64,000 bases of DNA, taken from assembly GCA_018268195.1 (NCBI GenBank), contig JAFDWZ010000035.1, forward strand, positions 1 through 64,000, given 5' to 3'. Position 1 is the first letter of the stretch. The number at the start of each line of letters is the position of its first letter. The position numbers and the translations under genes are program-made. Positions 8,896 through 41,908 of this stretch are shown here, in pieces. This DNA comes from Bacteroidota bacterium (GTDB lineage Bacteria; Bacteroidota; Bacteroidia; AKYH767-A; OLB10). Below the pieces are notes generated by a model that searched no databases, was not told the origin of the DNA, and saw only the letters and a list, made by a program, of their open reading frames with translations.

Positions 8896-9841
8896 GTAAG
8901 TTAGGATTTAATCCTACATAAACAGGAGTTGAATAAGCACTCAATCCACTATTGGTACAGGTTAACTGGCAGCGATAATATTTGGCTGAAGCCTGATTAG
9001 CCAATTGTGAATAAGAAGTGCCCAGATTATTAACGTTAACGGTAAACGCTGCATCATCAGCACTCTGCCATTGATAAGTTATTCCTGCCTCGAACGATGC
9101 ACCTGATAAAGTTAAATTGAAATTTTCGCCAGGGCACACAGGAGTGTTTGATGTTACGGTGGCACCTGCTGTTGGAGTGCCTGCACATGGTGTATTAGGT
9201 GCTAATTCCAGTTGCATAGTATTAAACACACTCAATACACCACTTGCTATTGGAGGGCTTGCAGGGTCAGGATTTGTACCATCACTATAATAATGTATTG
9301 CTCTACTGCTTCCTGCTGTAGTCTTAAACATATTACTGGTGTACGTGTATGAGGGGTCGTTTTGATCTACAGCGATAACCAAATTTCCATTTGATTGAAC
9401 ATAGTTAAAAGGTGTAGTGAGTATTATCTCACAGGTAAAACCAGGGGTAACAGGTTGAGTAACCGTGCCTGAAAAAACTTGCGTTAAATTCGACAATGGC
9501 ACCCAGTCAGTTGTTCCCGAAAAAATGCCGGTTGCTTTATAACCTAAATATACCGTCCAGTTATTATTATTAACAAAACTGCCTGCATTCCAATAGAACC
9601 TTAACTTGGTTATAGTGCCGTCCATTCCTATTTCTGATGATAATACAATTTGTTGTGTATAACTATAACCATACAAATTGTTAATAGGAATTTGATAAGA
9701 TGTGCCTGTAGAATTCGGATCACCGATAGTAACGGTAGTTTGCGCTTTTGTACCGGTTGTCCACATCAATAATGATAGGAGCCCAATACAAAAATAAACT
9801 GAGCTGCGTAGCAGCCGCCTGATTTTGTTTGTGTTTGTCAT
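8744..9841 (-). CDS. N-terminal part of the giant T9SS cargo protein, truncated by frameshift
   Basis: This is a 365-codon reading frame with a clear signal peptide (residues 1-34, hydrophobic FCIGLLSLLMW, cleavage after KAQ). A beta-sandwich region follows (about 35-210), then one Ig-like unit (about 215-310) and the opening of a beta-helix module (FHSFNDFKAAMSCGIAG). The last ten or so residues are out of register. The second module, further along the same gene, reads NVASGSGPYNEAV where this one reads NVQQAVALIMSR. Moving one base restores AGSGPYNEQV. The true protein therefore almost certainly continues into the frame covering 8776 to 1. The ATG at 9841 is chosen because the signal peptide follows directly. 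It may be a real mutation, a variable site or an assembly error. Confidence 0.85.
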   Translation of the reverse strand: MTNTNKIRRLLRSSVYFCIGLLSLLMWTTGTKAQTTVTIGDPNSTGTSYQIPINNLYGYSYTQQIVLSSEIGMDGTITKLRFYWNAGSFVNNNNWTVYLGYKATGIFSGTTDWVPLSNLTQVFSGTVTQPVTPGFTCEIILTTPFNYVQSNGNLVIAVDQNDPSYTYTSNMFKTTAGSSRAIHYYSDGTNPDPASPPIASGVLSVFNTMQLELAPNTPCAGTPTAGATVTSNTPVCPGENFNLTLSGASFEAGITYQWQSADDAAFTVNVNNLGTSYSQLANQASAKYYRCQLTCTNSGLSAYSTPVYVGLNPNLPGGNYTINSALPTGGSNFHSFNDFKAAMSCGIAGAVVVNVQQAVALIMSR

Positions 9842-17208: not shown

Positions 17209-20200
17209 TTATTCCACAATCAGTCGTTTTGCAACTGTATGTCCATCAGCATCTGTGATTTTAAGAATATAAATTCCCGTGTGCAGGTCATTTCTGTCTA
17301 TACGTGCCTGACCATTGACAGATGTTAAGCGTATTGTTTCCTTACCTAAAATATCATACAATACCATGATTGCCTCCGGTGCATATCCTTTTAACTCTAC
17401 TATCGTAAAAGTATTGAAAGGGTTAGGAGATATGCTTACAGACTGATACTCTGAATCTGAATTCTCTTGCCCTGCAATTCTACAACTAATGAATGTAAGT
17501 TTGGACTTTGCAGAGAATCGTGAACAGCCGTTAAATGTTTGCATAACACGATAAGTGCCTGCCAAAGTAGCCACATAGGTTTGAGCATTTGCTCCCGGAA
17601 TATCAATATTATTAAGCTGCCACTGATAAGTTACACCGGAATAAGTATTTGATGTAAGTGTGGTTGAGGAACCGGTACAAATGGTGGTTCCTGCTGATGA
17701 AGTGAAAGTTGGCGTTGGATTGGTTTGCATGTTGAGTACTGCTGTATTGGATGTGACTTCAGGGCATCCGCCTACATTAATTTTTACATAATAACTCCCT
17801 GAACTAATTGCATTAAGGCTACTACCTGTGGCTCCTGCAACTAATGCATTATTTCTGTACCACTGATACACCGCACCACCTGTAGCATTCACTGAATATA
17901 ATTGTGAATTGCCACTACATATTGAAGTTATTCCTGATGGTGCAACAATACTATCGGCAGTGATAATATTTACAGCAATTATATTCGATTCCAATGACCC
18001 GCAATTTGCTGTCACTATAACTGAATAATTACCTGCCGCTGTTGCAGTAAACATTGATTGTGTTGCTCCCAAGAGAATATTACCATTAAGTTTCCACTGA
18101 TAAACAAGACCTGATCCTGTATTAGCCTGTAAAGTAACATTCCCTCCCGGGCAAAAACTTGTAGGACCATTTGCATTTATCTGTGCTTCCAATGAAATAA
18201 CATTTACTGTTACACCTGCCGATGTTGCACTTCCACAGGTTGTTGTTACCGTTACTGCGTAATTGCCCGCTACGGTGGCCATATAACTCTGTGCCGTTGC
18301 TCCTGCTATCGCTTGTCCGTTCAGCATCCACTGATAACCGCTACCCGCATTTGCACTCAGCAGCACACTGCCGCCCTGACATATCTCCTGAACTCCCGAT
18401 GGTGTTATGGTAGCCTGTTGGTTGCCGCCCGTGCTTACCGTAATGGTATTGCTTATAGAGGTACAACCTTTGGCTACACTGCACTGATATGCTCCTGCCT
18501 GTGTTACTGTATAACTCGTTGATGTAGCTCCTGCTATTGCATTGCCGTCTTTTATCCATTGATATACGGCTCCACTTACAGTATTTACTGTTAATGTTAC
18601 CGTTGATCCATTGCATAGTGACGTGCTGCCGCTCGCTGTTATGGTTGCCAATGGGCCTGCTGTTGCTGTTACTGTTATACTTGGCGATTTCTTCGAACAT
18701 CCATTCGCTGTTTGTTTTACACGGTACGATCCCGCTGTTGTTGCCGTATATATCTGTCCGGTTGCTCCTGATACCACAACTCCATTCTTCTCCCATTCAT
18801 ACGTTACGCCTGCATAAAAATTGGTCGTAAGGTCAACCGTACTGCCTACGCAGATATTCGTTGAGCCATTCGCACCTATCGTTGGTGTCGGATTATTGAT
18901 TACCGTTACTACCATACTGTTCGATTCTCCCGAACAGCCACTGCCTTGTGGTACTGTTATATAACAATAATATGTCCCTTGTTGTAAAGTAGTATAACTT
19001 GAACTCGTTGCTCCACTGATTGCACTATTATTCCTGTACCACTGATAGGTTATTCCTGCTCCTGTGGGTGCTGTCAATGTTACCGAACTTGCTGCACATA
19101 TCTCTGTCGAACCATTTGCCATAATCGTGGTGGACGATCCCATGGTTGCATTTACTGCATTCGAAACTGCCGTACACCCTGATGCATTAGTAATAACTAC
19201 TGCATAGCTTCCTGCTGTTGATACCTGTATTGTTGAACTTGTAGCTCCTGCAATGTTCGCTCCATCTTTCTGCCACTGATAGGCATATCCTGCACCACTG
19301 TTGGCTGCAAGCACAACCGGACCCGAACATACATCTACCGTTCCACTCGGACTCACTGTTGCTGTCAGCGATGTTACATTTACTGTTACACCTGCCGATG
19401 TTGCACTTCCACAGGTTGTTGTTACTGTTACTGCGTAATTGCCAGCTACGGTGGCCGTATAACTCTGTGCCGTTGCTCCTGCTATCGATTGTCCGTTCAG
19501 CATCCACTGATAACTGTTGCCTGCATTTGCACTCAGCAGCACACTGCCGCCCTGACATATCTCCTGAATTCCCGATGGTGTTATGGTAGCCTGTTGGTCG
19601 GTAACTGTAATTGTTGCAGTAGCTGCGTTAGTACAGAAACCATTTGTATAAGTATAAGTAATAACATGTGTTCCAACTCCTGCAACAGCCGGATTAAAAA
19701 TTCCGTTACTCACACCCACACCACTGTAAACACCTCCTGCCGGAGAACCACCGTTAAGTGTAAATGGGCTATTACCCACACATACAGGATTAAAAGTATT
19801 CAGAGCTACTGTTGCATTACATTGCTTTACAATTTCAAACTGATCATATACAACAGGATTTGGCAAAGTATTATCAATAAATTTCGCTTTTAAAGTATCG
19901 CCATCAACATCAATAACCATGCTACCATATTTCGAATCCGAATAACTGTACATTGCAGGATGTGGCCAGCCGGCAGAAACTGATTCAACAATACCACCCG
20001 TTCCTGCAACAGCATAAACAGTACCATCAAAGTTATTGGATGCTGATTTTATATATGGCGTAGCAGTACCACCGCTACCTCCATCTACTTTGTATGAACT
20101 GTTAAAGGTATTGGAATACCCATAATGTCCTTTTAGCATAAAGCTTCTTTCATAATTATGACTGTGTCCGCTTAAAACTAAATCCACTTTATATTGCTCA

Positions 20201-22155
20201 AGAATCGGAATAAAATTTTGTCGCATCTCAATCATTCCTGATTCTGCATCTGAGTCGTGACTGCCTTTGGAATATGGTGGATGATGAAAATAAACAACTG
20301 TCCATTTTTGTGTGTTAGCCGCCAAATCACTTTGAAGCCAGGTCATCATAGCTCCCCCATTCACTCTGAAAGAAGCAGTTGTTGACTCTAAAACTATAAA
20401 GTGAATATTTGCATAGTCATAAGAATAATAAGCTTTATGTCCTGAAGGAACACCTCCTGCTTCACCGTTAGTCGCGAAACTAAACATTTCATAGTAAGGT
20501 CCTGTTTCATTTGTTGCATCTGAAGCATACATCTCATGATTACCTGCTGAAGGCCATACTGCGGTTTGTCTCAGCATTCTTTCATAACGATTGACAAATA
20601 CATAATTCTGATATTCTGCATCAGTACCTGAATTATAGGCATTATCACCAAGCCACAACCATAAATCAGTGTATGTGTTTCCGGTGTAATTATAATAAGC
20701 ATCTCTCACCTGATTTTGCTCAACGCTGCCAAATCCCATATCACCTAATACCCAAATACGAGTAGGTTTAACAGTTCCGGCTACGGGTGGAGTAATAAAG
20801 AAATTTTCTGTCGAATCCCTTTGTAAAAAACTGTTGCCTGACTTAATTGCATAATAATACTTGGTATTCGGAAGAAGGTTGGATAACTGTACAACATGTT
20901 CTGTTGTTCCTTGTTGATTTGTTACACTATCAGTAAAATTCAAAGGCGAAGTTCCATAAACAATCTTCGATGCTGTGCTTAAATCGGTGCGATATCTGAC
21001 AATTATACTTGTAGGAGTAGCTACATTCAAATATGCACCACGAGTAATAACAGGCACGGTAGGTGGTGTATTTCCCATTCCTGTAAGTGACATATCAAAA
21101 CTGAGATCCGAACTGTTAATAACAAACTGATGTACTTCTGCAGCAATTACATTGTTGCCATTAACAAAATAAGATGTCGGTATGGTTGCAGTAAGTACAC
21201 TGTTACCATCATCAGCAGCATCCATATCAGCTAATGTATTATAAGAAACCGTTCCGGTTAAATTATCTCTCCATACCTCCACACCATTGACATAAATCAC
21301 AACGCCATCATCGCGTTTAACTCCTAATTGAAAAGAAGTAAAGGCATTCACATCAGGAATAGTAACTGACTTTCTGAAATAGGTAGTGATGTATTTGTTA
21401 TTCGGGTCCGGACCATACGATACGATTGTTGACTCATCACCATCGCCATAACCCAATTCGCCTGTACCTGATGCCCAGCCTGAATCATTAAAAGACAAAT
21501 CTCTCCACGTTGTACCCTGATTGGTACCGTTATCGAGATACTTCCAATTGGAATGTAAAGAGAATATACTTTGATTGGCAGGAGGCAAACCTTCCATTCC
21601 TGTTAATGACATGCTGAAGCTCAAATCTGAACTATTCGCTACAAACTGATGCATTTCAACCGCTACCACATTATCGCCATTCACAAAATATGAAGCTGGA
21701 ATGATTGCTGTAAGGACAGTGTTGCCATCATCAGATGCATCCGCATCAGCTAGTGTAGTATAATTAACAACTCCACTGATATTATCGCGCCAAACTTCCA
21801 CTCCATTTACATAAACCACAACACCATCATCACGTTTAACTCCTATCTGAAAACCGGTGAAATTACTTACGTTAACAATGGTAAAAGTTTTTCTGAAATA
21901 GGTTGTCACATATTTGTTTGCCGCATCAGGGCCATAAGAAACCGTTGTAGTTTCATCTCCATCGCCATAGCCTAATTCTGCATTTCCGCTAGCCCAGGCA
22001 GCATCGTTAAATGATGGTTGCTGCCATGCAGTTCCCTGGTTGCTTCCATTATCGAGGTATTTCCATGAAGTATTTAAACCAAAAATTGTTTGATCGGCCT
22101 TGGCCAGAAAAGAAAATAAAATCAATAGAACTGTAATCCATTTATTCATTTGCAA
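17209..22155 (-). CDS. Large purple acid phosphatase-like T9SS cargo with nine Ig-like repeats
   Basis: This is a 1,648-residue paralogue of the 13934-17083 product. After the signal peptide (about 1-21) it carries two copies of the jelly-roll domain (each with WKYLDNG and ELGYGDGDE). An FN3-like domain and a metallophosphoesterase domain follow, with motifs GDMG (about 470), GDNAY, GNHEMY (about 538), HHPPY and GHSHNYER (about 665). About nine Ig-like units of 75-80 residues (about 852-1560) come next, most with a YQW core. The protein ends in a type A T9SS domain (SISPNPFNTF, YDILGKE, TGIYILKI). The catalytic role is inferred from the family; the Ig units probably hold the enzyme away from the cell or bind a surface. 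The ATG at 22155 or 22149 could be the start. Two Ig units are nearly identical at DNA level. Confidence 0.92.
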   Translation of the reverse strand: MQMNKWITVLLILFSFLAKADQTIFGLNTSWKYLDNGSNQGTAWQQPSFNDAAWASGNAELGYGDGDETTTVSYGPDAANKYVTTYFRKTFTIVNVSNFTGFQIGVKRDDGVVVYVNGVEVWRDNISGVVNYTTLADADASDDGNTVLTAIIPASYFVNGDNVVAVEMHQFVANSSDLSFSMSLTGMEGLPPANQSIFSLHSNWKYLDNGTNQGTTWRDLSFNDSGWASGTGELGYGDGDESTIVSYGPDPNNKYITTYFRKSVTIPDVNAFTSFQLGVKRDDGVVIYVNGVEVWRDNLTGTVSYNTLADMDAADDGNSVLTATIPTSYFVNGNNVIAAEVHQFVINSSDLSFDMSLTGMGNTPPTVPVITRGAYLNVATPTSIIVRYRTDLSTASKIVYGTSPLNFTDSVTNQQGTTEHVVQLSNLLPNTKYYYAIKSGNSFLQRDSTENFFITPPVAGTVKPTRIWVLGDMGFGSVEQNQVRDAYYNYTGNTYTDLWLWLGDNAYNSGTDAEYQNYVFVNRYERMLRQTAVWPSAGNHEMYASDATNETGPYYEMFSFATNGEAGGVPSGHKAYYSYDYANIHFIVLESTTASFRVNGGAMMTWLQSDLAANTQKWTVVYFHHPPYSKGSHDSDAESGMIEMRQNFIPILEQYKVDLVLSGHSHNYERSFMLKGHYGYSNTFNSSYKVDGGSGGTATPYIKSASNNFDGTVYAVAGTGGIVESVSAGWPHPAMYSYSDSKYGSMVIDVDGDTLKAKFIDNTLPNPVVYDQFEIVKQCNATVALNTFNPVCVGNSPFTLNGGSPAGGVYSGVGVSNGIFNPAVAGVGTHVITYTYTNGFCTNAATATITVTDQQATITPSGIQEICQGGSVLLSANAGNSYQWMLNGQSIAGATAQSYTATVAGNYAVTVTTTCGSATSAGVTVNVTSLTATVSPSGTVDVCSGPVVLAANSGAGYAYQWQKDGANIAGATSSTIQVSTAGSYAVVITNASGCTAVSNAVNATMGSSTTIMANGSTEICAASSVTLTAPTGAGITYQWYRNNSAISGATSSSYTTLQQGTYYCYITVPQGSGCSGESNSMVVTVINNPTPTIGANGSTNICVGSTVDLTTNFYAGVTYEWEKNGVVVSGATGQIYTATTAGSYRVKQTANGCSKKSPSITVTATAGPLATITASGSTSLCNGSTVTLTVNTVSGAVYQWIKDGNAIAGATSTSYTVTQAGAYQCSVAKGCTSISNTITVSTGGNQQATITPSGVQEICQGGSVLLSANAGSGYQWMLNGQAIAGATAQSYMATVAGNYAVTVTTTCGSATSAGVTVNVISLEAQINANGPTSFCPGGNVTLQANTGSGLVYQWKLNGNILLGATQSMFTATAAGNYSVIVTANCGSLESNIIAVNIITADSIVAPSGITSICSGNSQLYSVNATGGAVYQWYRNNALVAGATGSSLNAISSGSYYVKINVGGCPEVTSNTAVLNMQTNPTPTFTSSAGTTICTGSSTTLTSNTYSGVTYQWQLNNIDIPGANAQTYVATLAGTYRVMQTFNGCSRFSAKSKLTFISCRIAGQENSDSEYQSVSISPNPFNTFTIVELKGYAPEAIMVLYDILGKETIRLTSVNGQARIDRNDLHTGIYILKITDADGHTVAKRLIVE
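18201..18422 (-). repeat. 222-bp direct repeat, copy 1 (Ig unit)
   Basis: This copy matches 19377-19598 at a constant offset of 1,176 bp with about nine mismatches by eye and no gaps. It encodes an Ig-like unit beginning near ICQGGSVLLSANAG. The other Ig units in the same gene are far more diverged, so this pair results from recent duplication or gene conversion. Confidence 0.9.
19377..19598 (-). repeat. 222-bp direct repeat, copy 2 (Ig unit)
   Basis: This is the partner of 18201-18422. It is in the same frame, so recombination between the copies would remove or add 392 codons (about five Ig units) without a frameshift. Confidence 0.9.
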
Positions 22156-29527: not shown

Positions 29528-32500
29528 ATGGCATCCACAAGATTTAATCTCTCCACACAAATGGGTAAAAGTTCCACTCAGGAGCTTACCTATTTCCGTA
29601 TTTTGTTTGGATTGCTTGGAGTGGTTTATGTTTTTGTCGGAATGTTTCTTACCGGAAACTCCGTTACGGTGTGGTTGCCGTTTTCATGGTTAGCATTTAT
29701 TCCTTTTGCATTACTTGCCATCTCTTTTTTCCTGCCACTATCCTCCAAATATTTATCAGAAATGGCTGCAGGTATGTTTCTGGTGCTCACTATTCATCTG
29801 CTGTTTTACCTTTTTAAAAATCAACCCGGTATTCATATCGGTTTTATTCTTATTGCCGTAATTCTGTTCTCCAATCTGCATATCACCAATGTAATTTATC
29901 TGTTGTTGTACAATGTCCTTGTTCTTGGAGCGCTCGAATACATCCTTATTGCAGGTAATGCCGGTGTGACTCAACCGGTAATCATGTTTTTCAGTGTGGT
30001 ATTTGGCATGCTGTTTAGTTTCCTGATGCAATGGTTTCGAATTAAAAACAATGAAGCACAGGAGAAAAAAGAAAAACAGTTACAGAGAATATTTCAGAAT
30101 TCACCTGTAGCACTGGCAACTTTCAACAAAAGTGATTTCTCACTTATTGATTACAACATAGTTGCTGAAGATTTATTAAGTTTAAAAAATCAAAAAGGTG
30201 CTACACTTCGTTCTTTGTTTGCACTCGAAAATTATAACGACAATGAACTGTTGCGACTGGCTACAGCAGGAAGTTTTAATGCCATAGCTACAACATCTCA
30301 TCAGCAGTCTAACCTCTCACTCACCCTCACCGCACCGGCTGATGAAAAAGTAATAATTGCCAGTTTCAGTGCGTCTGAATTACTTCAGCCAAAGCCAGAA
30401 AAATCTTTTATCCCCGGAAATTATTTTATCACCGACCTCAAAGGTCAGATTCTTGCTTCCAGTCATGATGCGGAAGACTTTATCACCATAGAGATTGAGT
30501 CGCTTAAAGATTATTTTAAAAAATTCATTCGTGATAATGCAACTATTCACAACTACACTCAATTTAAAATAAATGAGACCGACCCCTTTGTTTTTGAAAT
30601 ATTCAATGGAGAATATGAAGGTGAGAAAGCATACTACTGGATGCTGGTAAAAAACATTTCTGTTCATCATACAGAAACTATTGAAAATAATTTGCCTGCA
30701 GAAAACTGGAGTCAGTTGATTTTAGATGAGGAGGATGAGCTGGTGTCTTTCAGTCCGTCCTTTCTGAACCTTATCGGTTACACCGATTCAGAACTTGCAC
30801 AAATTGATATCCAACAGTTAGTCCATCCTGCCGATAGTGTTAAATGGAAAAACTTATTGCAGCAAAGCCGCAGAGATAAAAAAGCTGATGACACGGTACG
30901 TTTCATTCATAAAAATGGTGAAATTCATTTTCTGAAATCATTATTCAGCACCAATGGATCACAGTCTGTTAAAATTTTTGCAGAAGATATTTCCGATTCT
31001 GTTCGATTGCAAAAAGAACTTTCGCTTGCAAGAGCCAACGTTTCATCTGTAATTGAAAATACCAACGACCTGATTCTTTCTCTCGATATGAATCATGTTA
31101 TTACAGTGATAAATTCTGCAGGAATAAATTTCTACAAACAACTGATCGGAAAAACACTTAAACCCGGAGACAATTACCGGACAGTTATTCCTCAGGACGA
31201 AATTGCTGAATGGAATGATTATCATCAGCAGGCTATGCGAGGCAAAAAACCTGTTTACGTCAGAGAGTTCCATATTGCAGACCGGAACAGAACTTTTGAG
31301 TTTTCATTAAACCCCGTATTTACCGACAATCAAATTATCACAGGCATATCTTTATTCGGAAGAGATATTACACAACGGGCTGCTTACGAAAAAGAGTTGA
31401 TGCAGGCACGCGAAATTGCTGAAAACGCCACCGCAGCCAAATCGCAGTTTCTTGCTACCATGAGTCATGAAATCCGTACGCCTCTCAACGGTATTGTAGG
31501 TATGCTTGAATTGCTCCGAATGACATCGTTGCAGGACAAGCAACGTGAATATGTAAGCACCCTGCAACTCAGCAGTGAAAATATGCTCAACATTATTAAT
31601 GATGTGCTCGATTTCTCCAAAATAGAGTCTGATAAAATGGAACTGGAGAATGAGCCTTTTGAGTTGCGAAGAGTCATTGAGGAAACTTTTGATTTGTTAT
31701 ATTATCGTGCCTTAGGCAAAAAGCTGGAGTTGTTTTATAATATTGACGAAACCATTCCTGCATACATCATGGGTGACAGTATGCGACTGAAGCAGGTGCT
31801 AGTAAATCTTGTTGGAAATGCCATAAAATTTACCGCGCATGGTCACATTCTCATCAACACGCAGTTGGTGCCCTCTGCAGGCGACACTCTCGAAATACGG
31901 TTTTCTGTTAAAGACACCGGTGCCGGCATTAGCGAAGAACAAAGACAACGACTGTTTAAATCATTCCAGCAAGCTGATGTATCCACCTACAGAAAGTATG
32001 GAGGCACAGGCTTAGGGTTAACCATCAGTGCCAAATTGGTTTCGCTCATGGGAGGAATTATTGATGTGGAAAGCACTCCGGGTAGTGGTTCAGAATTTTA
32101 CTTCACTATTAAAACAAAGGCTGCACCGGTTGCGGCATCGCGAAACCTCAAAACCAATCTGCGTATATTAAGAGGAAAGAAGGTATTGATATTTTCTGTT
32201 AACACTGATTTTGATTTACATCTCAGCGACTTGTTTAATGACTGGAATATGGTTCATCATACCGTAACCACACTGGAAGATGCACGAACCGAACTTGCCG
32301 ACTCCTCAGTTTATGATGCACTTATTATGGATGCGCAAATGCCGGATTATTTGCTTTTTGCAGAAGACCTGAAAGAGCATACACGTCAGTCAGGAATACC
32401 GATGTTTGTGTTTAATGCAAGTGTATCAGGCGATGTAATTTATGGCAACAAATTATTTGAAGCAGTACTACCTGCAGGTGTTGATGCCATAAAAATTTCT

Positions 32501-33343
32501 ACTGTGCTTATTAAATCATTTGTCGAAACTTCACAGAGATATAATATTGCAACTACTGAAGAGCCTACTTATGATACTACTCTTGCAAATCGTTTCCCTC
32601 TTCAGATTCTTATTGCCGAAGATAATCCGGTAAACCAGATGCTCACCGTTACCGTTTTAGAAAAATTAGGATACAAACCTGATGTTGCCGAAAACGGAAA
32701 CAAAGTGTTATCACAAGTTGCTGCCAAAACTTACGACCTGATTTTTATGGATGTGCAGATGCCGGAAAAAGATGGTCTTGAAACTACCATTGAACTGCGC
32801 AAATCTCCTGCACATACAAACACGCTTATAATTGCCATGACTGCATTTGCACTGGATGACGATAAGAAAAAATGTATGGATGCCGGCATGAATGATTACA
32901 CCACCAAACCCATACGTATTGAAACCGTGCAGGCACTGATTGAAAAATGGGGTATTGAAATAAACAACAGAAAGTCAATGAACAAAACCGAACCTGCTGT
33001 TGACAGAATAGTCATCAACAGGTTGAAAGATCTTTCGCCCGAAAATGACAATGAGTTTCTGAAAAATATTCTCGATTTATACATCAAGCAATTGGATCGG
33101 CTTACGCAGGATATTTCGGCATATAATACTGCCAAAGATTTAGACAATCTTTATAAGGCTGCTCATAAACTCAAAGGTAGTTCAGCAAACATAGGTGCTA
33201 AAATTCTTGAAGCAGCTTGTCGTATTGTGGAAGAAAAAGGCAAAAACGGAGACGAAAATCTGTTGAACGAAGAAGTTGCCAATCTTATGGAAGCTGCCCA
33301 AGCAACCAGAAAGGAAGTGCTCGACATTCTCAGTAAATACTAA
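29528..33343 (+). CDS. Hybrid sensor histidine kinase with PAS, two REC and Hpt domains
   Basis: This is a 1,271-residue membrane phosphorelay protein. Its N-terminal region (about 20-180) has six or so membrane helices. Three PAS-like regions follow (about 190-300, 395-500 and 505-620). Then come HisKA with H647 ([10 protein letters not shown]), HATPase_c (about 745-865; [22 protein letters not shown]), a degenerate receiver REC1 (about 885-1000), a good receiver REC2 (about 1020-1140; D1075) and a C-terminal Hpt domain with H1213 (AAHKLKGSS). REC1 keeps D935 but lacks the usual acidic pair and the conserved Lys. The full His-Asp-His relay is thus inside one protein; the final response regulator is not encoded nearby. 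The signal is unknown. Confidence 0.94.
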
Positions 33344-33719
33344 CTTCATACACTTCTTTTCTCAGAGCATCATTGCAAAGTGTATCCTCTTGAAAAATTC
33401 CACATGCCTTTAAATCATTAATTCTTTATCCATAGCTCTTTTTGTATAGCTGATAATGGAGCAAACTAAATTTATCAATCTCAAAACCACTACCTGCATT
33501 TTGTTCATACACGATGAATAGGAATATTTGGATTTGATAAATCCCTTACCGGAGAAAATATTTTTATTAACTATTGATGAATTTATTAGAATTTCATATT
33601 AATTTAGGCGTCACTAAATAACCAAATTATGAATGCACATCTCCCCCCCTCCCGCAAAAAGAAGATATTTCTTGCTTAGAAATCAGGAATTTTAAGAATA
33701 AAATAACCGTTCCATTGCC
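33344..33719. other. Intergenic region with direct repeat, small inverted repeat and C7 tract
   Basis: This 376-bp spacer has no convincing gene. It holds the left 83-bp direct repeat (33375-33457), an inverted repeat GGATTT-GAT-AAATCC (33530-33544) and a run of seven C (33653-33659) about 60 bp before the GTG start of the next gene. The C7 tract also lies inside a 16-codon ATG ORF (33629-33679). Confidence 0.6.
33375..33457. repeat. 83-bp direct repeat, left copy
   Basis: This copy matches 40025-40107 at 81 of 83 positions in the same orientation; the differences are T/C at 33422 and T/C about 23 bp later. Weaker similarity extends about 20 bp upstream. It lies downstream of the hybrid kinase gene and before the two-gene T9SS cassette. 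It has no obvious hairpin and no ORF. Confidence 0.95.
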
Positions 33720-36700
33720 GTGAAAAAGCTGCTCTTAATTTTATCTTTTTTGTTTCCTGCCTTCATTCAGGCAAATTACTTACCATACGGCAGTTCCATT
33801 CAGGTAGTATGGAACGGAAAAAACGGCAACGGCATATTGTGCCTCGACAATTCGGCAGGTGATTGTGGAAATTACTGCCCTAGTGTAACCTGTGCTGAAA
33901 TACCTGTTATAACTCCTATTTCAGCCATTAACGGGCCCGCCATAGTGTGTGCAGGCTCACAAACAAAATACAACGTGCCTGATATGACAGGTAGTGTTTA
34001 CAACTGGAACGTCACAGGTGCCGGAGGCACAATTATTTCAGGACAAGGAACCCATGAAATATTGGTAGAATGGGGTAGCTCAGGTACGGCACTTATTCAT
34101 GTGGACTATGAAAACAGGTTGCTTGACTGTGGTGGAACAGGCGACATTACTGTAGAAATAATGGAAGACTTTACTATTTCCGGTCCTGACAAAAGTTGCC
34201 CGAATGCTGATATCGTATTTTCAGCAGTAAACCCTGCCAACGTATCCTTTGACTGGACAGCAACCGATAATCAAAACCAGGTTCATTTTCTGGGAAGCGG
34301 TAGCGGCACCCCTGATTTTACTGTGAACTCATGGAACCTCGGTAGTGGCACATTTATTATAACAGCCACTGATAATTCCGGAAACTATTGCAACACCACT
34401 GCAAGCCTAACCTTGGAAATAAAAGATGCCCCACCTCCACCTGCCATGCCTACGGGCGATGACTGGGTGTGCGCAGGAACACCACACCTTTATTCCGGCA
34501 CACCTTCAAATGCAGTTTATTACCTGCAATGGTCTGTTACAAATGGAAGCCCTGCTTCGGCAACGGGTAATGATGTTTCCATTGCCTGGAATGCTAATTT
34601 ACCTCACAATTACTCCATAAGTTTGGTGCAGGTGGAAACCGTTTCAGGATGCGTCTCCGACCCTACACTGATGCCTATACAAGAGAAACTTTACACACCT
34701 CCCTTACTTGCCGGTGATTTTGCCCCTTGTATGGGCTCTGTCCAACCTTATATTATCTCCAATGTGAGCACCCCTCAACCTCAGACCGGAGATTATATAT
34801 ATGACCAAATCCAGTGGATTATTATTCCTTCAACTGCCGGAAGTGTGATTAGCGGACAGGGAACACTGAATGCCAACATTCAATGGAACAATGGCGTTGC
34901 TTCTGCCTCTATTCAGATTAAAACCACACTTTGCGGTTATGATAACTACCTCGCTTCTTTTTCTGTTAACTTAAGAGGTGTTCCTGCCTTAACCATAACT
35001 TCAACAGGGACAGTGTGCGAAAATACTCCCTTAAATTTTTCTTTTTCACCTCCTATTACAGGTTCAGGTGTTACCTATCTTTGGAGTTTTGGAGACGGAT
35101 CTAACTCTTCTCTTCAAAATCCTACTCCCCATGCTTACGACCTGTCCCCCGGTGCTCCGGTTACTACTTTTTACGTAACTCTTGTGGTTGACAACAACGG
35201 TTGTACCTCTTATGCCAGCTCCAATATATCGGTAAACCCTGAGCCCTTGGTTGAACATTGGTTATCCCATGACAAATTCTGCCCTCCACTAGTTTCAACT
35301 ATTTCAGCTTCCTTAACCCTGCAATCCGGAAGTTTTAATTATTTATGGAGTAACGGCTCCGCTACCTCTGCAACCTCTTTGTTTTATACCGACCCTCAAC
35401 CTTTTACAGTTACGGTTACCAATGCCGTTACAGGTTGTTCCGCTTCTGAATCTTTTTCCATTCCTTTCTGTCAGGCACCTTCCACTTGCAATAACGACCC
35501 TACCGTAGATGTTGCTTTCAGCTATTCTGCTGGTTCCGACTGTCTGACTAAAAATTTTCTCGCCAATATCAGCGGTGGCAATCCACCCCCCGCTTCTTTA
35601 GCATGGGATTTTGGAGATCAAACTTCTGATTTCACTTCATCTCCATCACATACCTATTCTTCCGCAGGGCATTTTAAGGTTTGTCTGTATGCTTTTGATA
35701 ATCTCGGAGTTCCGTATTGCGATTTTGACTGTCAAATTATTGACATCCCGCTTTATCCTGATTTTACTACGGCATTCCACTGCAGCTCTACTCCAGGAAG
35801 CTATGATGTGGAATTTATTGACCTTTCTACTTACCTTTATCCTATTAGTAATTGGGATTGGTATGAAGGATCTACACTGCTTGGCTCCGGTGTTAATCCT
35901 GTTTTTACCTTATCTCCGGGTGTTCATAATATTACTTTGAAACTCAAAAATGCTAATAATGATGTGTGCGAGCGCACCATTGCAATTCCTGTACCCCTGC
36001 CTCCGTCTGCTGCTTTCACCGTTAGCGGTGCTCCCTTTTGCGAAAAACAAACTATCGTTCATCTGACAGCAAGTAATACCAACGTTCACCATGCCTTGTG
36101 GGACTTTGGCGATGGTTCCTTATATATGCCATTAGACCCCTCTGCAGGTATTAATACTGACAGGGTGTTTAATGGATCTGGGTACTACAGTATAAACCTT
36201 ACCGTTACGGATAAATACGGCTGCAACTACAGCAGCACTCAGCAGGTAACGGTTAATGAAAATAAGTTGGGCGGATCAGTTATGCCCCTAAATACTCATT
36301 TTTGTCCGGGAGCAAATGAAACCTTTTGGCTGAATTTGCTCAACACATATTCTCCACCCACAGCGTGGCTGTGGACAACGGGTGCAACCACTCCCACCAT
36401 TACGGTAACGCAAACCGGCAGTTATAATGTGACCGTGAGCGATAACAAAGGCTGTAGTTTCAGCCCTGCCGTTGCCGGCATGGCTTCTGTTTTCAATGTG
36501 CCGCAGCCTGTCATCAGGGGCAACCTTGAACTTTGCTTTGGTGAAGATATTTCTCTCAACGGGAATCAAGGGCCGGCAGTGCAATACCTATGGACAGTGA
36601 CTGACCCGAACAGTACAACCACAACCTACAGCCAGCCCGACATAGTAATAGCAAACGCCCAAACTGGCATTTATTCCGTTACCCTTGAAATTACTGCCAA

Positions 36701-37427
36701 TGGCTGCTCCCGAAGCACTCAAGTAAGCGTTACGGTTCATCCACCCCCTGCCCTGCCTGACATACAAAGCAATCCAAACCCACCTTGCGAAGAACAGGCA
36801 ATAGACCTGAGTGTTACCAATGCCGGCAGCAACTGGATTAACTGGAGCAACGGTGCCAGCGGAACACCCATAACCGTTTACAATGCCGGAGTTTATCGTG
36901 CCACTGTAACGGATGCTTATGGATGCACGGCATTTAATGATTTTCAAGTTTATGAAAACCCCTATTCAGGCTTTTTTAACAATGGATGCATGGACTTTTG
37001 CGATACAGTGCCCATAACCATTCCCGGTAGCACGTGGGCAGGCATTGCCATTAATTATGCAAAATGGGAATGGTTTGTGGACGGGCAGTCGTACAGTGCC
37101 GGGGCAAACTCGCCTGTGGCTGACCTTATACTTGGCACAATGAATCCGGGTGTGTATGTCATAACGCTTCATTTAGTTGCTCACTATCCTGACGGTGACT
37201 GCGATTTCTGGACCAAACCTCTTGAAATTACCATCAGGCGTTGTCCGTGCCGCATTAACCCTAAAGGCTCTATTTATTGTATGGAATATGCTGACGGTGA
37301 CATCAACCTGCCTCACAACTACCATTTTGAAATAAATACCAATTACGATTGCTCTGTAAGTCCAAATCTGACAGTAACCTCTCCTGATGGCGGGGTAACA
37401 CTATTGTCTTCATCCATACTCCCATAA
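33720..37427 (+). CDS. PKD-repeat T9SS cargo protein, N-terminal 1,235 residues (ends at in-frame stop)
   Basis: This frame starts at GTG with a clear signal peptide (KKLLLILSFLFPAFIQA). It then holds a long array of PKD/Ig-like units, several with the PKD core motif (YLWSFGDGS, LAWDFGDQT, ALWDFGDGS) and others of the type AWLWTTGATTPTITV. It ends at TAA (37425-37427) without a sorting domain. The same frame reopens immediately and carries a T9SS domain (37458-38228), so the original gene was almost certainly 33720-38228 (about 1,502 residues). Such repeats serve as stalks or adhesins on the cell surface; no enzyme domain is seen. By eye the third codon positions are richer in C than in neighbouring genes, which hints at a separate origin. 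Confidence 0.85.
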   Translation: MKKLLLILSFLFPAFIQANYLPYGSSIQVVWNGKNGNGILCLDNSAGDCGNYCPSVTCAEIPVITPISAINGPAIVCAGSQTKYNVPDMTGSVYNWNVTGAGGTIISGQGTHEILVEWGSSGTALIHVDYENRLLDCGGTGDITVEIMEDFTISGPDKSCPNADIVFSAVNPANVSFDWTATDNQNQVHFLGSGSGTPDFTVNSWNLGSGTFIITATDNSGNYCNTTASLTLEIKDAPPPPAMPTGDDWVCAGTPHLYSGTPSNAVYYLQWSVTNGSPASATGNDVSIAWNANLPHNYSISLVQVETVSGCVSDPTLMPIQEKLYTPPLLAGDFAPCMGSVQPYIISNVSTPQPQTGDYIYDQIQWIIIPSTAGSVISGQGTLNANIQWNNGVASASIQIKTTLCGYDNYLASFSVNLRGVPALTITSTGTVCENTPLNFSFSPPITGSGVTYLWSFGDGSNSSLQNPTPHAYDLSPGAPVTTFYVTLVVDNNGCTSYASSNISVNPEPLVEHWLSHDKFCPPLVSTISASLTLQSGSFNYLWSNGSATSATSLFYTDPQPFTVTVTNAVTGCSASESFSIPFCQAPSTCNNDPTVDVAFSYSAGSDCLTKNFLANISGGNPPPASLAWDFGDQTSDFTSSPSHTYSSAGHFKVCLYAFDNLGVPYCDFDCQIIDIPLYPDFTTAFHCSSTPGSYDVEFIDLSTYLYPISNWDWYEGSTLLGSGVNPVFTLSPGVHNITLKLKNANNDVCERTIAIPVPLPPSAAFTVSGAPFCEKQTIVHLTASNTNVHHALWDFGDGSLYMPLDPSAGINTDRVFNGSGYYSINLTVTDKYGCNYSSTQQVTVNENKLGGSVMPLNTHFCPGANETFWLNLLNTYSPPTAWLWTTGATTPTITVTQTGSYNVTVSDNKGCSFSPAVAGMASVFNVPQPVIRGNLELCFGEDISLNGNQGPAVQYLWTVTDPNSTTTTYSQPDIVIANAQTGIYSVTLEITANGCSRSTQVSVTVHPPPALPDIQSNPNPPCEEQAIDLSVTNAGSNWINWSNGASGTPITVYNAGVYRATVTDAYGCTAFNDFQVYENPYSGFFNNGCMDFCDTVPITIPGSTWAGIAINYAKWEWFVDGQSYSAGANSPVADLILGTMNPGVYVITLHLVAHYPDGDCDFWTKPLEITIRRCPCRINPKGSIYCMEYADGDINLPHNYHFEINTNYDCSVSPNLTVTSPDGGVTLLSSSILP

Positions 37428-37457
37428 TACCTTTCCGGCATTCTTGCCACCACTGCT

Positions 37458-38228
37458 TTGTATCCTCAAACCGTGTGTTTTGATTTGAATTTTACCGATG
37501 TAAACAGCCCTGAATGTAACTGCAATTACCGATACTGCATGAAACTGCCCAAATGCGGAATCCCGGGCGATTGCAATTTTGAGATGCCTATTACCGGTTT
37601 GGATTGTATTGGGCATGATGCACAAGGACATCCTGTTTATACTCTTACCATTATGGCAAACCCCTTTAATTACTCTGCTCTTTCCTACTCGGTGCAGGGA
37701 GGTATCCTTGCCGGAATACCTGCTACTATTGGTCCGGGCATTTCGCTCATTAACGCTACCTTCACCGACCTTACTCCTTTTGATGGATTTTGTATCGCTT
37801 TTCAGGTTTATGATTTTACTACTCACATAGTATGTGAACATTTAATTTGTATAAATAATCCACCAGGCTGCGGTGGAACACCTCCCACTCGATTGACTAT
37901 GCCTGAAAAAACCGACTCTCTGTTTGGGTTAACTCAACTGCTTATGGATCCCAATCCCGCAGACAATATGGTTTACCTTCATTATTCTACTATGGTCAAT
38001 GAACTCTCTTCACCCACTAACAAAACACAAACAAAGCCTGTCGGTGAATTAGAAATAAAAGATATGCATGGGAAAACACTCTTTTCTCAGCAACTGACTC
38101 AGACAAATGCTGCGACTGCAGTCAACACCTCCCAATGGAGTGAGGGTGTGTATGTCGTTTCTCTCAGAACTTCTGCTGGAAGTTTAATAGTTAAAAAATT
38201 AGTCATCATAAAATCATTCACACGATGA
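37458..38228 (+). CDS. C-terminal part of the PKD-repeat T9SS cargo protein, after in-frame TAA
   Basis: This frame is the same as 33720-37427, separated by one TAA codon. The nominal TTG start at 37458 is only the first usable codon and has no signal peptide, so it is unlikely to be exported alone. The sequence has Cys-rich segments (NCNYRYCMKLPKCG) and ends in a type A T9SS domain (LMDPNPADNM, IKDMHGKTL, EGVYVVSLRTS). Its stop overlaps the ATG of the next gene (ATGA), so coupling with 38225-39961 depends on translation reaching this part. It may be a real nonsense mutation, stop readthrough or a base error. Confidence 0.75.
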   Translation: MYPQTVCFDLNFTDVNSPECNCNYRYCMKLPKCGIPGDCNFEMPITGLDCIGHDAQGHPVYTLTIMANPFNYSALSYSVQGGILAGIPATIGPGISLINATFTDLTPFDGFCIAFQVYDFTTHIVCEHLICINNPPGCGGTPPTRLTMPEKTDSLFGLTQLLMDPNPADNMVYLHYSTMVNELSSPTNKTQTKPVGELEIKDMHGKTLFSQQLTQTNAATAVNTSQWSEGVYVVSLRTSAGSLIVKKLVIIKSFTR

Positions 38229-39961
38229 AAACTGTTGTAAAAATTATCTGTATCCTCACTGCCCTGTCTTTGGCTGACGGCTTGGGGATAAAATCCTTTG
38301 CCCAAAGCTGGCAATGGGCTGCACGCATTGGCAGTGCTGCTGGCACTACTGATATTCCCGATGAAATGGTGAACGACATTAAAACCGATGCGCAGGGGAA
38401 TGTGTATTTGTGCGGAAGATTGTGTAAAAATGCCGACTTTAACGGTTTGCCCCTGAATAATTTATTCCCTTCAACAGGTTACTGCTCTTTTCTTGCCAAA
38501 ACAGACTGTGCCGGTAACCTCTTATGGATTAAAATCATGGGAGGATTATATGGTTACAACATGGCCAATGCCCTTGCTCTGGATAACAACGGCAATATTT
38601 ACCTGACCGGGCAATTAGGAGCTATAACCCCCATGCCCTGCACTTTTATGGATTCTGTCATTACCGAAGAGGCAGTAGATTTATTCCTTGCCAAATTTGA
38701 CACCGCTGGTAATTTTAAATGGGTGAACTGGGCTGCTAAAGGACCTGATTATCTTTTTACACAAGGTTCTAAAATTGAAATGGATTCTCAAAATCAGATT
38801 TATGTGATGGGATTGGGTATAACTACCGGAGGCGGTGTTCTTTTTCCGGGATACACTGTACCTCCAACATGGGCTTATGTAGCACGTTTTGATACGTCAG
38901 GGAATATAAATAAATTAATGAATATAGGTAATAACATTCAGGGACCTTTTGTTAAAGACTATAAGCTAAACCCTGTTACAGGCGATCAGTACATAACGGG
39001 AAGTTTTAGCAATGATTCAGTGGTAATCGGTGATACAACATTATTTAGACTTGCTATTTCAAGCGGAAGCGATTTATTTCTCGCCAAATTTGATTCGGCA
39101 GGATTGTTTCAATGGGTACGACAAATAGGCGACACAATACTTAATTTCAGCAAGGGTTACGGAATCAGTATTGATTCTTCTGATATTGTTGTTGTAGGTG
39201 GTACCGCCCCAACAACAACCATTGACGGATTTGGTTTTTCTAATCCATTAAGCACAAATTTTAATATGGATGTTCCTTTTGTAGCAAAATTTAATTCTAA
39301 CGGAACATGCTTATGGACAGCAAATTCCTTTCATAAATATCAAAGTAGAGCTACCGGAGGAATTACAACCTCCGGTAATGGAGATAGCTATTTTGCAGGA
39401 TGGTATGCAGGGCAGGCTATTTTTGGAAGTACTACATTCAGCGGTGCTAATGGGGTAAGAGATATATTTTTGGCAAAGATTTCTCCCTCAGGTGTGATTT
39501 TATCTGCTGACAGTATCAGCGGAACCGGCACGGAGGAAGTGCCTAAGTGCATAACAAGTGATGTAAATAATAATGTTTACATAGGTGGATCCTTTGACGG
39601 CACTATGACGGTGAACGGGGTAAACTACACACAGGCAGGAGGCAATTCCGATGGGTTTATTGCTAAATGGGGATATTCGACAGGATGCACCGTGGGCTTA
39701 AACGAAAATAACCTTGCTCCAGATGAGCATTTATTTTTATTTCCTAATCCGGTCAACAAAGAATTAAATATTCAACCTTCGAATTTTAAAATTCAAAAAC
39801 TGGAAGTGTATGATTTGATTGGAAATAAAATAACGGAAACTAATGCCAACAACAGAGAAGGTGTTATTAAATTAAATGTAAGTTCCTTTGCAAGTGGATT
39901 GTACATTATTAGAGCATTTGATGAAAATAGAAGTGTAGTTAAAAAGTTTGTGAAAGAGTAA
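38225..39961 (+). CDS. SBBP-type beta-propeller protein, T9SS type A cargo
   Basis: This 578-residue secreted protein has a signal peptide (1-27, ending SFAQ). Repeats follow of the form D-x-x-G/N-N-V/I-Y-x-x-G (DAQGNVYLCG, DNNGNIYLTG, DSQNQIYVMG, DVNNNVYIGG) alternating with FLAKFDTAG-like strands, which is the seven-bladed SBBP propeller pattern. It ends in a type A sorting domain (about 500-578; LFPNPVNKEL, YDLIGNKI, SGLYIIRAF). It overlaps the preceding gene by four bases, forming a coupled pair inside the direct-repeat-flanked cassette. Function is unknown; binding or scaffolding is a reasonable guess. Confidence 0.9.
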   Translation: MKTVVKIICILTALSLADGLGIKSFAQSWQWAARIGSAAGTTDIPDEMVNDIKTDAQGNVYLCGRLCKNADFNGLPLNNLFPSTGYCSFLAKTDCAGNLLWIKIMGGLYGYNMANALALDNNGNIYLTGQLGAITPMPCTFMDSVITEEAVDLFLAKFDTAGNFKWVNWAAKGPDYLFTQGSKIEMDSQNQIYVMGLGITTGGGVLFPGYTVPPTWAYVARFDTSGNINKLMNIGNNIQGPFVKDYKLNPVTGDQYITGSFSNDSVVIGDTTLFRLAISSGSDLFLAKFDSAGLFQWVRQIGDTILNFSKGYGISIDSSDIVVVGGTAPTTTIDGFGFSNPLSTNFNMDVPFVAKFNSNGTCLWTANSFHKYQSRATGGITTSGNGDSYFAGWYAGQAIFGSTTFSGANGVRDIFLAKISPSGVILSADSISGTGTEEVPKCITSDVNNNVYIGGSFDGTMTVNGVNYTQAGGNSDGFIAKWGYSTGCTVGLNENNLAPDEHLFLFPNPVNKELNIQPSNFKIQKLEVYDLIGNKITETNANNREGVIKLNVSSFASGLYIIRAFDENRSVVKKFVKE

Positions 39962-39988
39962 AAGGAGGTTATCTCTGCATCCTCCTTT
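39961..39988 (+). terminator. Hairpin after the cassette genes
   Basis: AAAGGAGG (39961-39968) and CCTCCTTT (39981-39988) form a perfect 8-bp stem with a 12-base loop, starting at the last base of the stop codon. A strong T run is lacking, so it may be a weak terminator or an RNA-end-protecting hairpin. Confidence 0.6.
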
Positions 39989-40024
39989 GCTTACTGATTC
40001 TTCTCTTTAGCATTGCATAGTATG

Positions 40025-40107
40025 GCAAAGTGTATCCTCTTGAAAAATTCCACATGCCTTTAAATCATTAACTCTTTATCCATAGCTCTTTTTGCATAGC
40101 TGATAAT
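40025..40107. repeat. 83-bp direct repeat, right copy
   Basis: This is the same-orientation partner of 33375-33457 (81/83). The two copies bracket 6.65 kb holding exactly the two coupled cargo genes. Recombination between them would delete or duplicate the cassette cleanly. Confidence 0.95.
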
Positions 40108-40245
40108 TGCTAAAACACATAAAATACAAGTTATTACTTTAAGAAATCCCTCTATTGCACCAAGAAAAAACAATATCACCTTAACATCTGTTATTATCGC
40201 ACAACTATTGTGACTCCTATTACTTTCAGTCATGGTTATAATAGT

Positions 40246-40253
40246 TATTTTTG
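40246..40253 (+). promoter_or_regulatory. Candidate -7 promoter element for pruA
   Basis: TATTTTTG matches TAnnTTTG. A TTT at 40224-40226 takes the -33 place with a 19-bp spacer. It lies 20 bp before the ATG. Confidence 0.5.
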
Positions 40254-40273
40254 CCTAATAATTCTGATTAATT

Positions 40274-41908
40274 ATGTCAAACGCAATATTCAATATTCCT
40301 CCGGCAACTAATGAGCCGGTACTTAACTATGCCCCCGGCAGTGCAGAACGCAAAGCTTTAAAAGCTGCATTAACTCATGCACGCTCGTATCAGGCAGACA
40401 TACCAATGTATATTAACGGAAAAGAAGTACGTACAGGAAAAACAGCTCCTCTGAATCCTCCGCACGATCATAAACATACATTGGGAGTATATCACAAAGG
40501 AACTAAAGAACACATTAAACAAGCTATAGATGCTGCACTGGCAGCACGCCACAAATGGGCTGCAATGGATTGGGAACAACGTGCTTCCATATTTTTAAAA
40601 GCGGCTGATTTATTAGCAGGTCCATATCGCTACAAAATGAATGCTGCAACCATGCTCGGCCAGTCTAAAAATGCTTATCAGGCTGAGATAGATTCAGCAT
40701 GTGAGCTCATAGACTTTCTTCGTTTTAACGTGCAGTACATGCGTGAAATATATACTCAGCAACCACCTGTAACCGGCAAAGGTGTATGGAACCGTATTGA
40801 GCAACGTCCTTTAGAAGGATTTGTTTTTGCACTTACACCATTCAACTTTACAGCCATATCAGGCAATTTGCCTACCGCTCCCGCCATGATGGGAAATACC
40901 ATTGTGTGGAAACCTTCCAACACTCAGATTTATGCAGCACATGTAATCATGGAGTTGCTCGCAGAAGCAGGACTACCTGACGGAGTTATTAACCTGGTTT
41001 ATGTTTCAGGTCCCGAAGCCGGAGATGTAATTTTCAGCCATCCTGATTTTGCAGGTATTCACTTTACAGGTTCTACTGAAGTATTTAAAGGAATATGGAA
41101 AACCATTGGTGAAAACATGCCAAAGTATAAGTCATATCCGCGCATTGTTGGCGAAACAGGCGGTAAAGATTATATCATTGCTCACCCCAGTGCCGATGTA
41201 GATGTATTGGTAACAGCATTAGCTCGCGGTGCATTTGAATATCAGGGTCAAAAATGCAGTGCTGCATCACGTACCTATATCCCGAAATCTTTATTTCCGC
41301 AGGTTAAAGAAAAATTGGTTGCCGAAGTTAACAGCATGAAAATAGGACCTGTGGAAGACTTCAGAAATTTTATCAATGCAGTTATTGATGAAAAATCATT
41401 TGATAAGATTGCAGGATATATTGAAAATGCCAGAAAAAGTGCTGAAGTGGAAATTATTGCTGGTGGCAAGTACGATAAGAGCAAAGGATATTTTATAGAG
41501 CCTACCATTTTGGTTACTTCCAACCCGGCTTACACTACCATGTGCGAAGAAATTTTCGGTCCGGTACTAACCATGTACGTTTATGATGATGAGCGTTTCG
41601 AAGAAACATTAAAATTAGTTGACTCTACCAGTGAGTACGCTTTAACAGGTGCTGTGATTGCCCGCGACCGTTATGCAATAGACATGGCAACCAAAGCGCT
41701 GACACATTCTGCAGGTAATTTTTATATCAATGATAAGTGTACGGGTGCTGTAGTAGGTCAACAACCATTTGGTGGAGCCAGAGGCTCAGGCACCAATGAT
41801 AAAGCAGGTGCAATGATTAACCTGCTGCGTTGGGTTTCACCTCGTACCATAAAAGAAACGTTTGTGCCCGCTACGGATTACAGATATCCTTTTATGGAAG
41901 CTGAATAA
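40274..41908 (+). CDS. pruA: L-glutamate gamma-semialdehyde dehydrogenase
   Basis: This 544-residue aldehyde dehydrogenase is of the single-function PruA type. The catalytic Cys is C328 (GQKCSAASR) and the general base E294 (GETGGKDY). The cofactor-site segment GNTIVWKPSN and IHFTGSTEVFKG are also present. It oxidises glutamate semialdehyde/pyrroline-5-carboxylate to glutamate with NAD in the cytoplasm, the second step of proline breakdown. No proline dehydrogenase gene is adjacent. It is a single-gene unit, convergent with the NlpC/P60 gene 14 bp away. Confidence 0.96.
   Translation: MSNAIFNIPPATNEPVLNYAPGSAERKALKAALTHARSYQADIPMYINGKEVRTGKTAPLNPPHDHKHTLGVYHKGTKEHIKQAIDAALAARHKWAAMDWEQRASIFLKAADLLAGPYRYKMNAATMLGQSKNAYQAEIDSACELIDFLRFNVQYMREIYTQQPPVTGKGVWNRIEQRPLEGFVFALTPFNFTAISGNLPTAPAMMGNTIVWKPSNTQIYAAHVIMELLAEAGLPDGVINLVYVSGPEAGDVIFSHPDFAGIHFTGSTEVFKGIWKTIGENMPKYKSYPRIVGETGGKDYIIAHPSADVDVLVTALARGAFEYQGQKCSAASRTYIPKSLFPQVKEKLVAEVNSMKIGPVEDFRNFINAVIDEKSFDKIAGYIENARKSAEVEIIAGGKYDKSKGYFIEPTILVTSNPAYTTMCEEIFGPVLTMYVYDDERFEETLKLVDSTSEYALTGAVIARDRYAIDMATKALTHSAGNFYINDKCTGAVVGQQPFGGARGSGTNDKAGAMINLLRWVSPRTIKETFVPATDYRYPFMEAE

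Follow-up and report, generated by a model that had tools for sequence, protein, structure and literature searches.

A T9SS cargo gene pair bracketed by a locus-specific direct repeat between a histidine kinase gene and pruA in a Bacteroidota genome

Introduction

Two nearly identical non-coding sequences in a 64,000-nucleotide stretch of a Bacteroidota genome (contig JAFDWZ010000035.1 of assembly GCA_018268195.1; hereafter the window) enclose two genes associated with T9SS sorting domains, raising the question of whether the enclosed block is a mobile unit and what part the repeats played in its arrival. The initial annotation of the window saw in this arrangement a cargo cassette that can be lost, duplicated or swapped by homologous recombination. 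The genome contains 137 matches to the sorting domain (Por_Secre_tail), or ~1 per 22 kb, and therefore the finding of cargo between two repeats is not telling in itself. We compared the locus with the three other genomes of the genus (G001, G002 and G003) and traced both the repeat and the gene pair more widely.

Results

The repeat pair and the genes between its copies

The repeat, R, is an 86-bp direct repeat, the two copies of which (R1 and R2) are identical at 83/86 positions (96.5%), lie in the same orientation (blastn E = 7.6e-34 in the 64-kb window) and are spaced 6,650 bp start-to-start. It was first found as a 95-bp family at 33372 and 40022, which blastn trims to 86 bp; the 83-bp repeats (81/83 identical, same orientation) described in the initial annotation were found again over 33375-33457 and 40025-40107, as part of the full R. 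The copies differ at three sites (T-G at 33374/40024, T-C at 33422/40072 and T-C at 33445/40095), and the longest perfect stretch is 47 bp. The locus comprises the following features.

29528..33343, + strand: hybrid histidine kinase gene (PAS, HisKA, HATPase, receiver and Hpt domains; Pfam), lying outside the insertion on its left; in G001, G002 (frameshifted) and G003 a syntenic orthologue immediately precedes pruA
33344..33371, no strand: 28-bp spacer from the kinase stop to R1; an ancestral intergenic origin is probable, but divergence from the sister genomes prevents proof by alignment
33372..33457, + strand: R1, left copy, non-coding, 29% GC, no significant fold (repeat finding, blastn)
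33458..33719, + strand: 262-bp leader of the PKD gene, with no exact TAnnTTTG promoter box (sequence inspection)
33720..38228, + strand: PKD-repeat T9SS cargo gene in two pieces, 33720-37427 and 37458-38228 (ORFs; Pfam PKD and Por_Secre_tail)
37425..37427, + strand: in-frame TAA between the PKD part and the T9SS sorting domain (ORFs; alignment to G003)
38225..39961, + strand: SBBP beta-propeller T9SS cargo gene, its start overlapping the preceding stop (ATGA) (Pfam, NCBIfam)
39955..39995, + strand: terminator-like hairpin (AAAGGAGG...CCTCCTTT) downstream of the SBBP stop and ahead of R2 (z = -3.0, 0/200 shuffles as stable)
40022..40107, + strand: R2, right copy, non-coding (repeat finding, blastn)
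40108..40165, no strand: ~58 bp adjoining R2 on its right that the sister species do not share; homology to them resumes at ~40166
40166..40273, + strand: conserved upstream region of pruA with a TAnnTTTG box at 40246, intact after the insertion (sister comparison)
40274..41908, + strand: pruA-type aldehyde dehydrogenase gene, right neighbour, outside the insertion (Pfam; orthologues)

Pfam returns the same flanking genes that the initial annotation had named, a hybrid kinase and pruA, and its statement that no transposase is present extends to integrases, neither being encoded between the repeats or among the window ORFs scanned against Pfam. It had further stated that the repeats enclose exactly a PKD-repeat gene and a coupled SBBP gene ending in a hairpin; this holds for the content and the hairpin, but the PKD gene consists of two ORFs, the second of which makes the ATGA overlap with the SBBP gene. 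A single TAA splits what is otherwise one PKD reading frame of about 1,500 codons; the G003 homologue of the gene, an uninterrupted 1820-aa ORF, aligns across this stop with 36.6% identity over 1,421 aligned residues.

The Por_Secre_tail domain scores 53 bits in the SBBP protein and 41 bits in the distal PKD piece (Pfam, cut-off 27). The SBBP gene encodes a signal peptide (N-terminus judged by inspection) and the Pfam tail in one continuous protein, which, by its sorting domain above the curated cut-off, is predicted to be type A T9SS cargo. The PKD gene as assembled yields no continuous protein with both signal peptide and tail, owing to the TAA at 37425; in this form its product would be without a T9SS signal, and the TAA may be either a mutation or an assembly error. 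The pair shares with type A T9SS cargo containing PKD and SBBP domains (PF18962, PF18911, PF06739) the succession of signal peptide, repeat body and Por_Secre_tail, the SBBP gene being an ordinary representative among about 130 such tails here, whereas in the PKD gene an in-frame stop precedes the tail.

R is confined to the two edges of the block

A genome-wide search of the 3.0-Mb, 71-contig draft recovered only two copies of R, one per block edge, and none of the other sorting-domain genes is marked by it, so that the search suggested by the initial annotation, for copies beside other T9SS cargo genes, returned nothing beyond the original pair. No copy was found in the 40 nearest relatives or, using a 377-bp query including R, in a class sample of 395 genomes; plasmids and viral contigs gave no match either, nor did they yield a donor molecule for the insertion. 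Weak matches of 24-27 bp were judged to be due to chance. In a scan of 455 kb of the same genome, made up of blocks of up to 20 kb, many of them cargo-rich, and the window, all treated alike, R was the sole non-coding repeat pair with at least 80% identity. With two copies in the genome and none in the relatives or the class sample, a dispersed element or cargo tag is ruled out, and because of the same distribution R is best regarded as a locus-specific junction duplication.

Other identities considered for R were also rejected. A structured RNA or terminator is inconsistent with the lack of an Rfam match and with a predicted RNA fold no better than that of shuffled sequences, and the terminator-like hairpin stands before R2. 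An attC site would form a DNA hairpin, and the DNA fold of R is likewise no better than shuffles (z -0.1 and -0.3). As for a small coding sequence, minus-strand frames of ~29 and ~40 codons share ~15 C-terminal codons, but their bodies differ and chance is the likelier explanation. Target-site duplications of the usual transposons are far shorter than 86 bp, and no inverted repeats of at least 20 bp were found in 32500-41000; R is thus too long for such a duplication.

The kinase-pruA site is empty in the three other genomes of the genus

In all three genus-mates, the kinase gene and pruA adjoin, with neither the cassette nor R between them. In G001, the kinase gene ends at 31562 and pruA starts at 31700, 134 bp after the stop, and G002 and G003 are arranged similarly. 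DNA homology to G001 and G002 stops at ~33297, still within the 3' end of the kinase gene, and picks up again at ~40166, and the 108 bp conserved upstream of pruA, with its TAnnTTTG box, survived the insertion. The two copies of R flank the block, and the empty sites of the sister genomes carry no R, though divergence of those intergenic regions may obscure the comparison. A scan of genome contigs for pruA gave only more distant relatives (71-75%), which were left out of the comparison.

Because the kinase gene and pruA are adjacent without cassette or R in all three genus-mates, this comparison of sequences shows the block to be a gain in its own lineage, a fairly recent, lineage-specific insertion of the PKD-SBBP block between kinase and pruA. 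A single gain is simpler than repeated losses, given that G003 is the more distant genome (pruA identity 84% versus 94%) and that deletions between two copies of R would leave one R behind, none of which was seen. Of the cassette proposal, the discrete unit gained at one site thus stands (three of three genus-mates are empty), but a recurrent cassette system does not, R being present in just two copies and the other cargo genes being unmarked. The locus therefore offers a clear contrast of filled and empty sites for a T9SS cargo pair, with junctions still readable, and shows that Bacteroidota can acquire large surface-protein genes between core genes with no mobile element visible.

Relatives of the pair occupy other loci

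Within the order, relatives of the SBBP gene at E <= 1e-50 were found in this genus alone; 3/4 genomes carry them, each at its own locus. They show 36% identity in G003 and 34% in G002, where the frame is disrupted; no close copy was found in G001. In G003 a PKD-SBBP pair (about 36% identity) adjoins a gene for a PLP-dependent decarboxylase of the ornithine/arginine type, whereas in G002 the SBBP gene stands alone, between genes for a pyridine-nucleotide-disulphide oxidoreductase and a LigB-type dioxygenase; neither locus is the kinase-pruA site. Since relatives occupy different loci across the genus, the PKD-SBBP pair is an accessory, relocating unit of the genus. A chromosomal origin at the G003 locus was considered and set aside: no trace of the pair was found beside the decarboxylase gene in the genome under study, G001 or G002, and the neighbours of the decarboxylase gene differ too, so that this locus provides no clean second empty site.

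The GC content of the PKD gene (0.446) exceeds that of the genome (~0.38), which the SBBP gene matches. This is no proof of foreign origin for the PKD gene, because the G003 copy is GC-rich too (0.464).

Age of the duplication

R1 and R2 diverge by 3.5% (3/86 sites), whereas the four-fold sites of pruA differ by 61% between this genome and G001 and by 32% between G001 and G002. Because of the gap between 3.5% and 61%, the duplication of R appears to post-date the species split, unless the copies were kept alike; if R is neutral and has not undergone conversion, the duplication would be much younger than the split. Gene conversion could have kept the copies similar, in which case the event would be older than it appears. 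The suggestion of the initial annotation that the repeat reflects recent duplication or selection thus fits if recency is taken relative to the species split; the copies may instead have been kept alike.

Discussion

A possible route of insertion

Our preferred reading, which we hold to be somewhat more likely than not, is that an accessory cargo pair was inserted here, probably through recombination with duplication of R, and that excision between the two copies is rare at most. The insertion itself, its absence from the sister species, the uniqueness of R, the coincidence of R with both ends of the block and the low divergence of the copies are observed; the crossover, a circular intermediate and any present-day excision are inferred. 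A two-gene unit for large surface or secreted proteins (PKD-repeat and SBBP, both genes ending in a T9SS sorting domain) entered the kinase-pruA interval in the lineage of this genome, with R1 and R2 marking the junctions and most likely made in the same event. In the Campbell model, a single homologous crossover duplicates the homology as direct repeats around the insert, and RecA recombination can reverse the process. The simplest route would be such a single RecA crossover, for which the recipient intergenic region and an incoming DNA with the pair, circular or duplicated, would each supply one R; the pair would end up with R on both sides. A crossover in reverse, pairing R1 with R2, would cleanly excise the two genes and yield a kinase-R-pruA arrangement, although it should be rare because the longest identical stretch is just 47 bp. 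The T9SS would export the cargo only where the sorting domain is translated.

As in Campbell integration of plasmids, direct repeats of one homologous stretch bracket the inserted DNA, but here no circular donor was found. The recipient state that this route requires was not seen either, since no kinase-pruA site with a single R exists among the genomes examined, and R together with the ~58 further bases to its right is absent from all sister intergenic regions.

Alternative explanations

The repeats might owe nothing to the arrival of the cassette and instead result from an unrelated local duplication, by slippage or ectopic gene conversion between intergenic regions. G001 also has locus-specific non-coding direct repeats around a block that is not cargo (227 bp, 93% identity, 9.3 kb apart), but the copies of R coincide with both ends of a block independently recognized as an insertion by the sister comparison, and the pair has no equal in the 455 kb scanned, so that we regard coincidence as unlikely. 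Each copy precedes a gene in the same orientation, R1 by 262 bp for the PKD start and R2 by 166 bp for pruA, as would fit a regulatory role in which R is a promoter, operator or leader of the PKD operon and of pruA, its copies held similar by selection or gene conversion. However, pruA has its own conserved TAnnTTTG upstream region, which starts ~58 bp downstream of R2 and is shared by the sisters that have no R, and the unequal distances to the two genes, the occurrence of R at no other gene and the lack of an Rfam match or stable fold make this role rather improbable.

Direct repeats of tens of base pairs at the ends of gained blocks are typical of integrase-made islands, and this genome encodes tyrosine recombinases partly similar to integron integrases (e.g. 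C7:470-1285), so that R1 and R2 could be attL and attR of a small island, with a tyrosine recombinase from another locus of the genome acting on it in trans. We deem this distinctly unlikely: the block contains no integrase, the window has no tRNA gene, R has no significant RNA or DNA fold, and the repeats, besides being imperfect, exceed the usual att cores in length and were not found elsewhere. The placement of the cassette could, finally, be a chimeric join, the assembly being a MAG-like draft of 71 contigs and repeats at block ends being where assemblers misjoin. Such an artefact is highly improbable, given that three differences resolve R1 and R2 as two sequences, that there is no other locus with R to misjoin to, and that the SBBP gene matches the genome in GC and the pair has relatives in the same genus.

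Comparison with known systems and generality

The locus can be set beside several known systems. Integron cassettes with attC sites likewise consist of genes separated by repeated non-coding DNA, but R has no hairpin, only two copies and no adjacent integrase, and the hallmarks of transposons and IS elements, a transposase and inverted repeats, are both absent. An island of 10 kb in Riemerella anatipestifer is flanked by 53-bp direct repeats (PMC6764341), and with direct-repeat islands of this type the locus has in common a block gained between core genes, repeats at both ends and a predicted clean excision to one repeat. It differs from them in having neither an integrase nor a tRNA or att-like target, in its imperfect 86-bp repeats and in a block of just two genes. 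As expected of an integrase-type island or IME, the corresponding site in G001, G002 and G003 lacks the block; the integrase that such an element would carry is not there, the PKD and SBBP genes standing alone between the repeats. We found no description of repeat-bracketed T9SS cargo in the open-licence literature. The interpretation given in the initial annotation is partly supported, in that the cargo pair was inserted and may be excisable; with one case and a repeat found only here, the locus is evidence neither of a cassette system nor of a new class of element. It makes the turnover of the numerous cargo genes testable at one defined locus.

The genus might routinely gain and lose accessory blocks, including T9SS cargo, with locus-specific long non-coding direct repeats serving as recombination handles and neither transposase nor integrase taking part; we assign this a low probability, and the findings lend no strong support to such gains between repeats as a habit of the genus. 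The scan for further cases covered 545 kb, mostly of sister genomes. In G001, the 227-bp repeat surrounds an AcrB-type efflux operon with its regulators, and the other three genomes lack the left neighbour of this block, so that no empty site can be read there. The R-bracketed cargo pair and this efflux operon are the two would-be examples of exchange through repeat handles. G001 also has a four-copy repeat array, which, like the 227-bp repeat, differs from R in sequence.

Repeat-bounded gene blocks in a related genome

On contig C11 of G001, another genome of the genus, a non-coding repeat of ~220 bp occurs in four copies (positions in locus L218), with blocks made up of small accessory genes between them, all on a single strand:

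9203-9419, non-coding repeat copy
12845-13060, non-coding repeat copy
~15025-15252, non-coding repeat copy
~18129-18251, non-coding repeat copy

The arrangement resembles an integron cassette array. The repeats lack the fold of classical attC sites. Further copies of the element lie in G001 at C4:1323 and C23:2521 (L231) and, once, in G002. The L231 copy adjoins a tyrosine recombinase that scores slightly below the cut-off for NCBIfam NF040815 (212 versus 220 bits) and below that for TIGR02249 (195 versus 265 bits).

Contig C11 also carries a non-coding direct repeat of 227 bp (positions in locus L216; 93% identity, copies 9.3 kb apart). Between the copies lies an efflux operon (AcrB/HlyD/OEP) that includes MarR- and AraC-type regulators:

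3488-3712, non-coding repeat copy
12772-12998, non-coding repeat copy

The window's own genome (G000) encodes a tyrosine recombinase at C7:470-1285 (open frame of 399 aa) with split, below-cut-off similarity to the integron integrase model TIGR02249; no repeat array was found in the adjoining 20 kb.

Variation within and among cargo genes

In the PKD cargo gene a single in-frame TAA (window 37425-37427) stands between the body of the gene and the T9SS sorting domain, whereas the homologue in the more distant genome G003 is uninterrupted; the stop is either a recent nonsense mutation or an assembly error.

Downstream of the SBBP gene on G003 contig C35, fragments at L172 9657-12632 match the start and end of that gene and are a decayed second tandem copy. 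SBBP cargo genes also stand in tandem at G000 C46:8000-18176 (L174), where shared blocks of 82-96% DNA identity suggest duplication or gene conversion among them.

Another cargo gene of the window (17209-22155, minus strand, 1648 aa) contains an internal 223-bp repeat with 96% identity between its copies:

18200-18422, copy within the minus-strand gene
19376-19598, copy within the minus-strand gene
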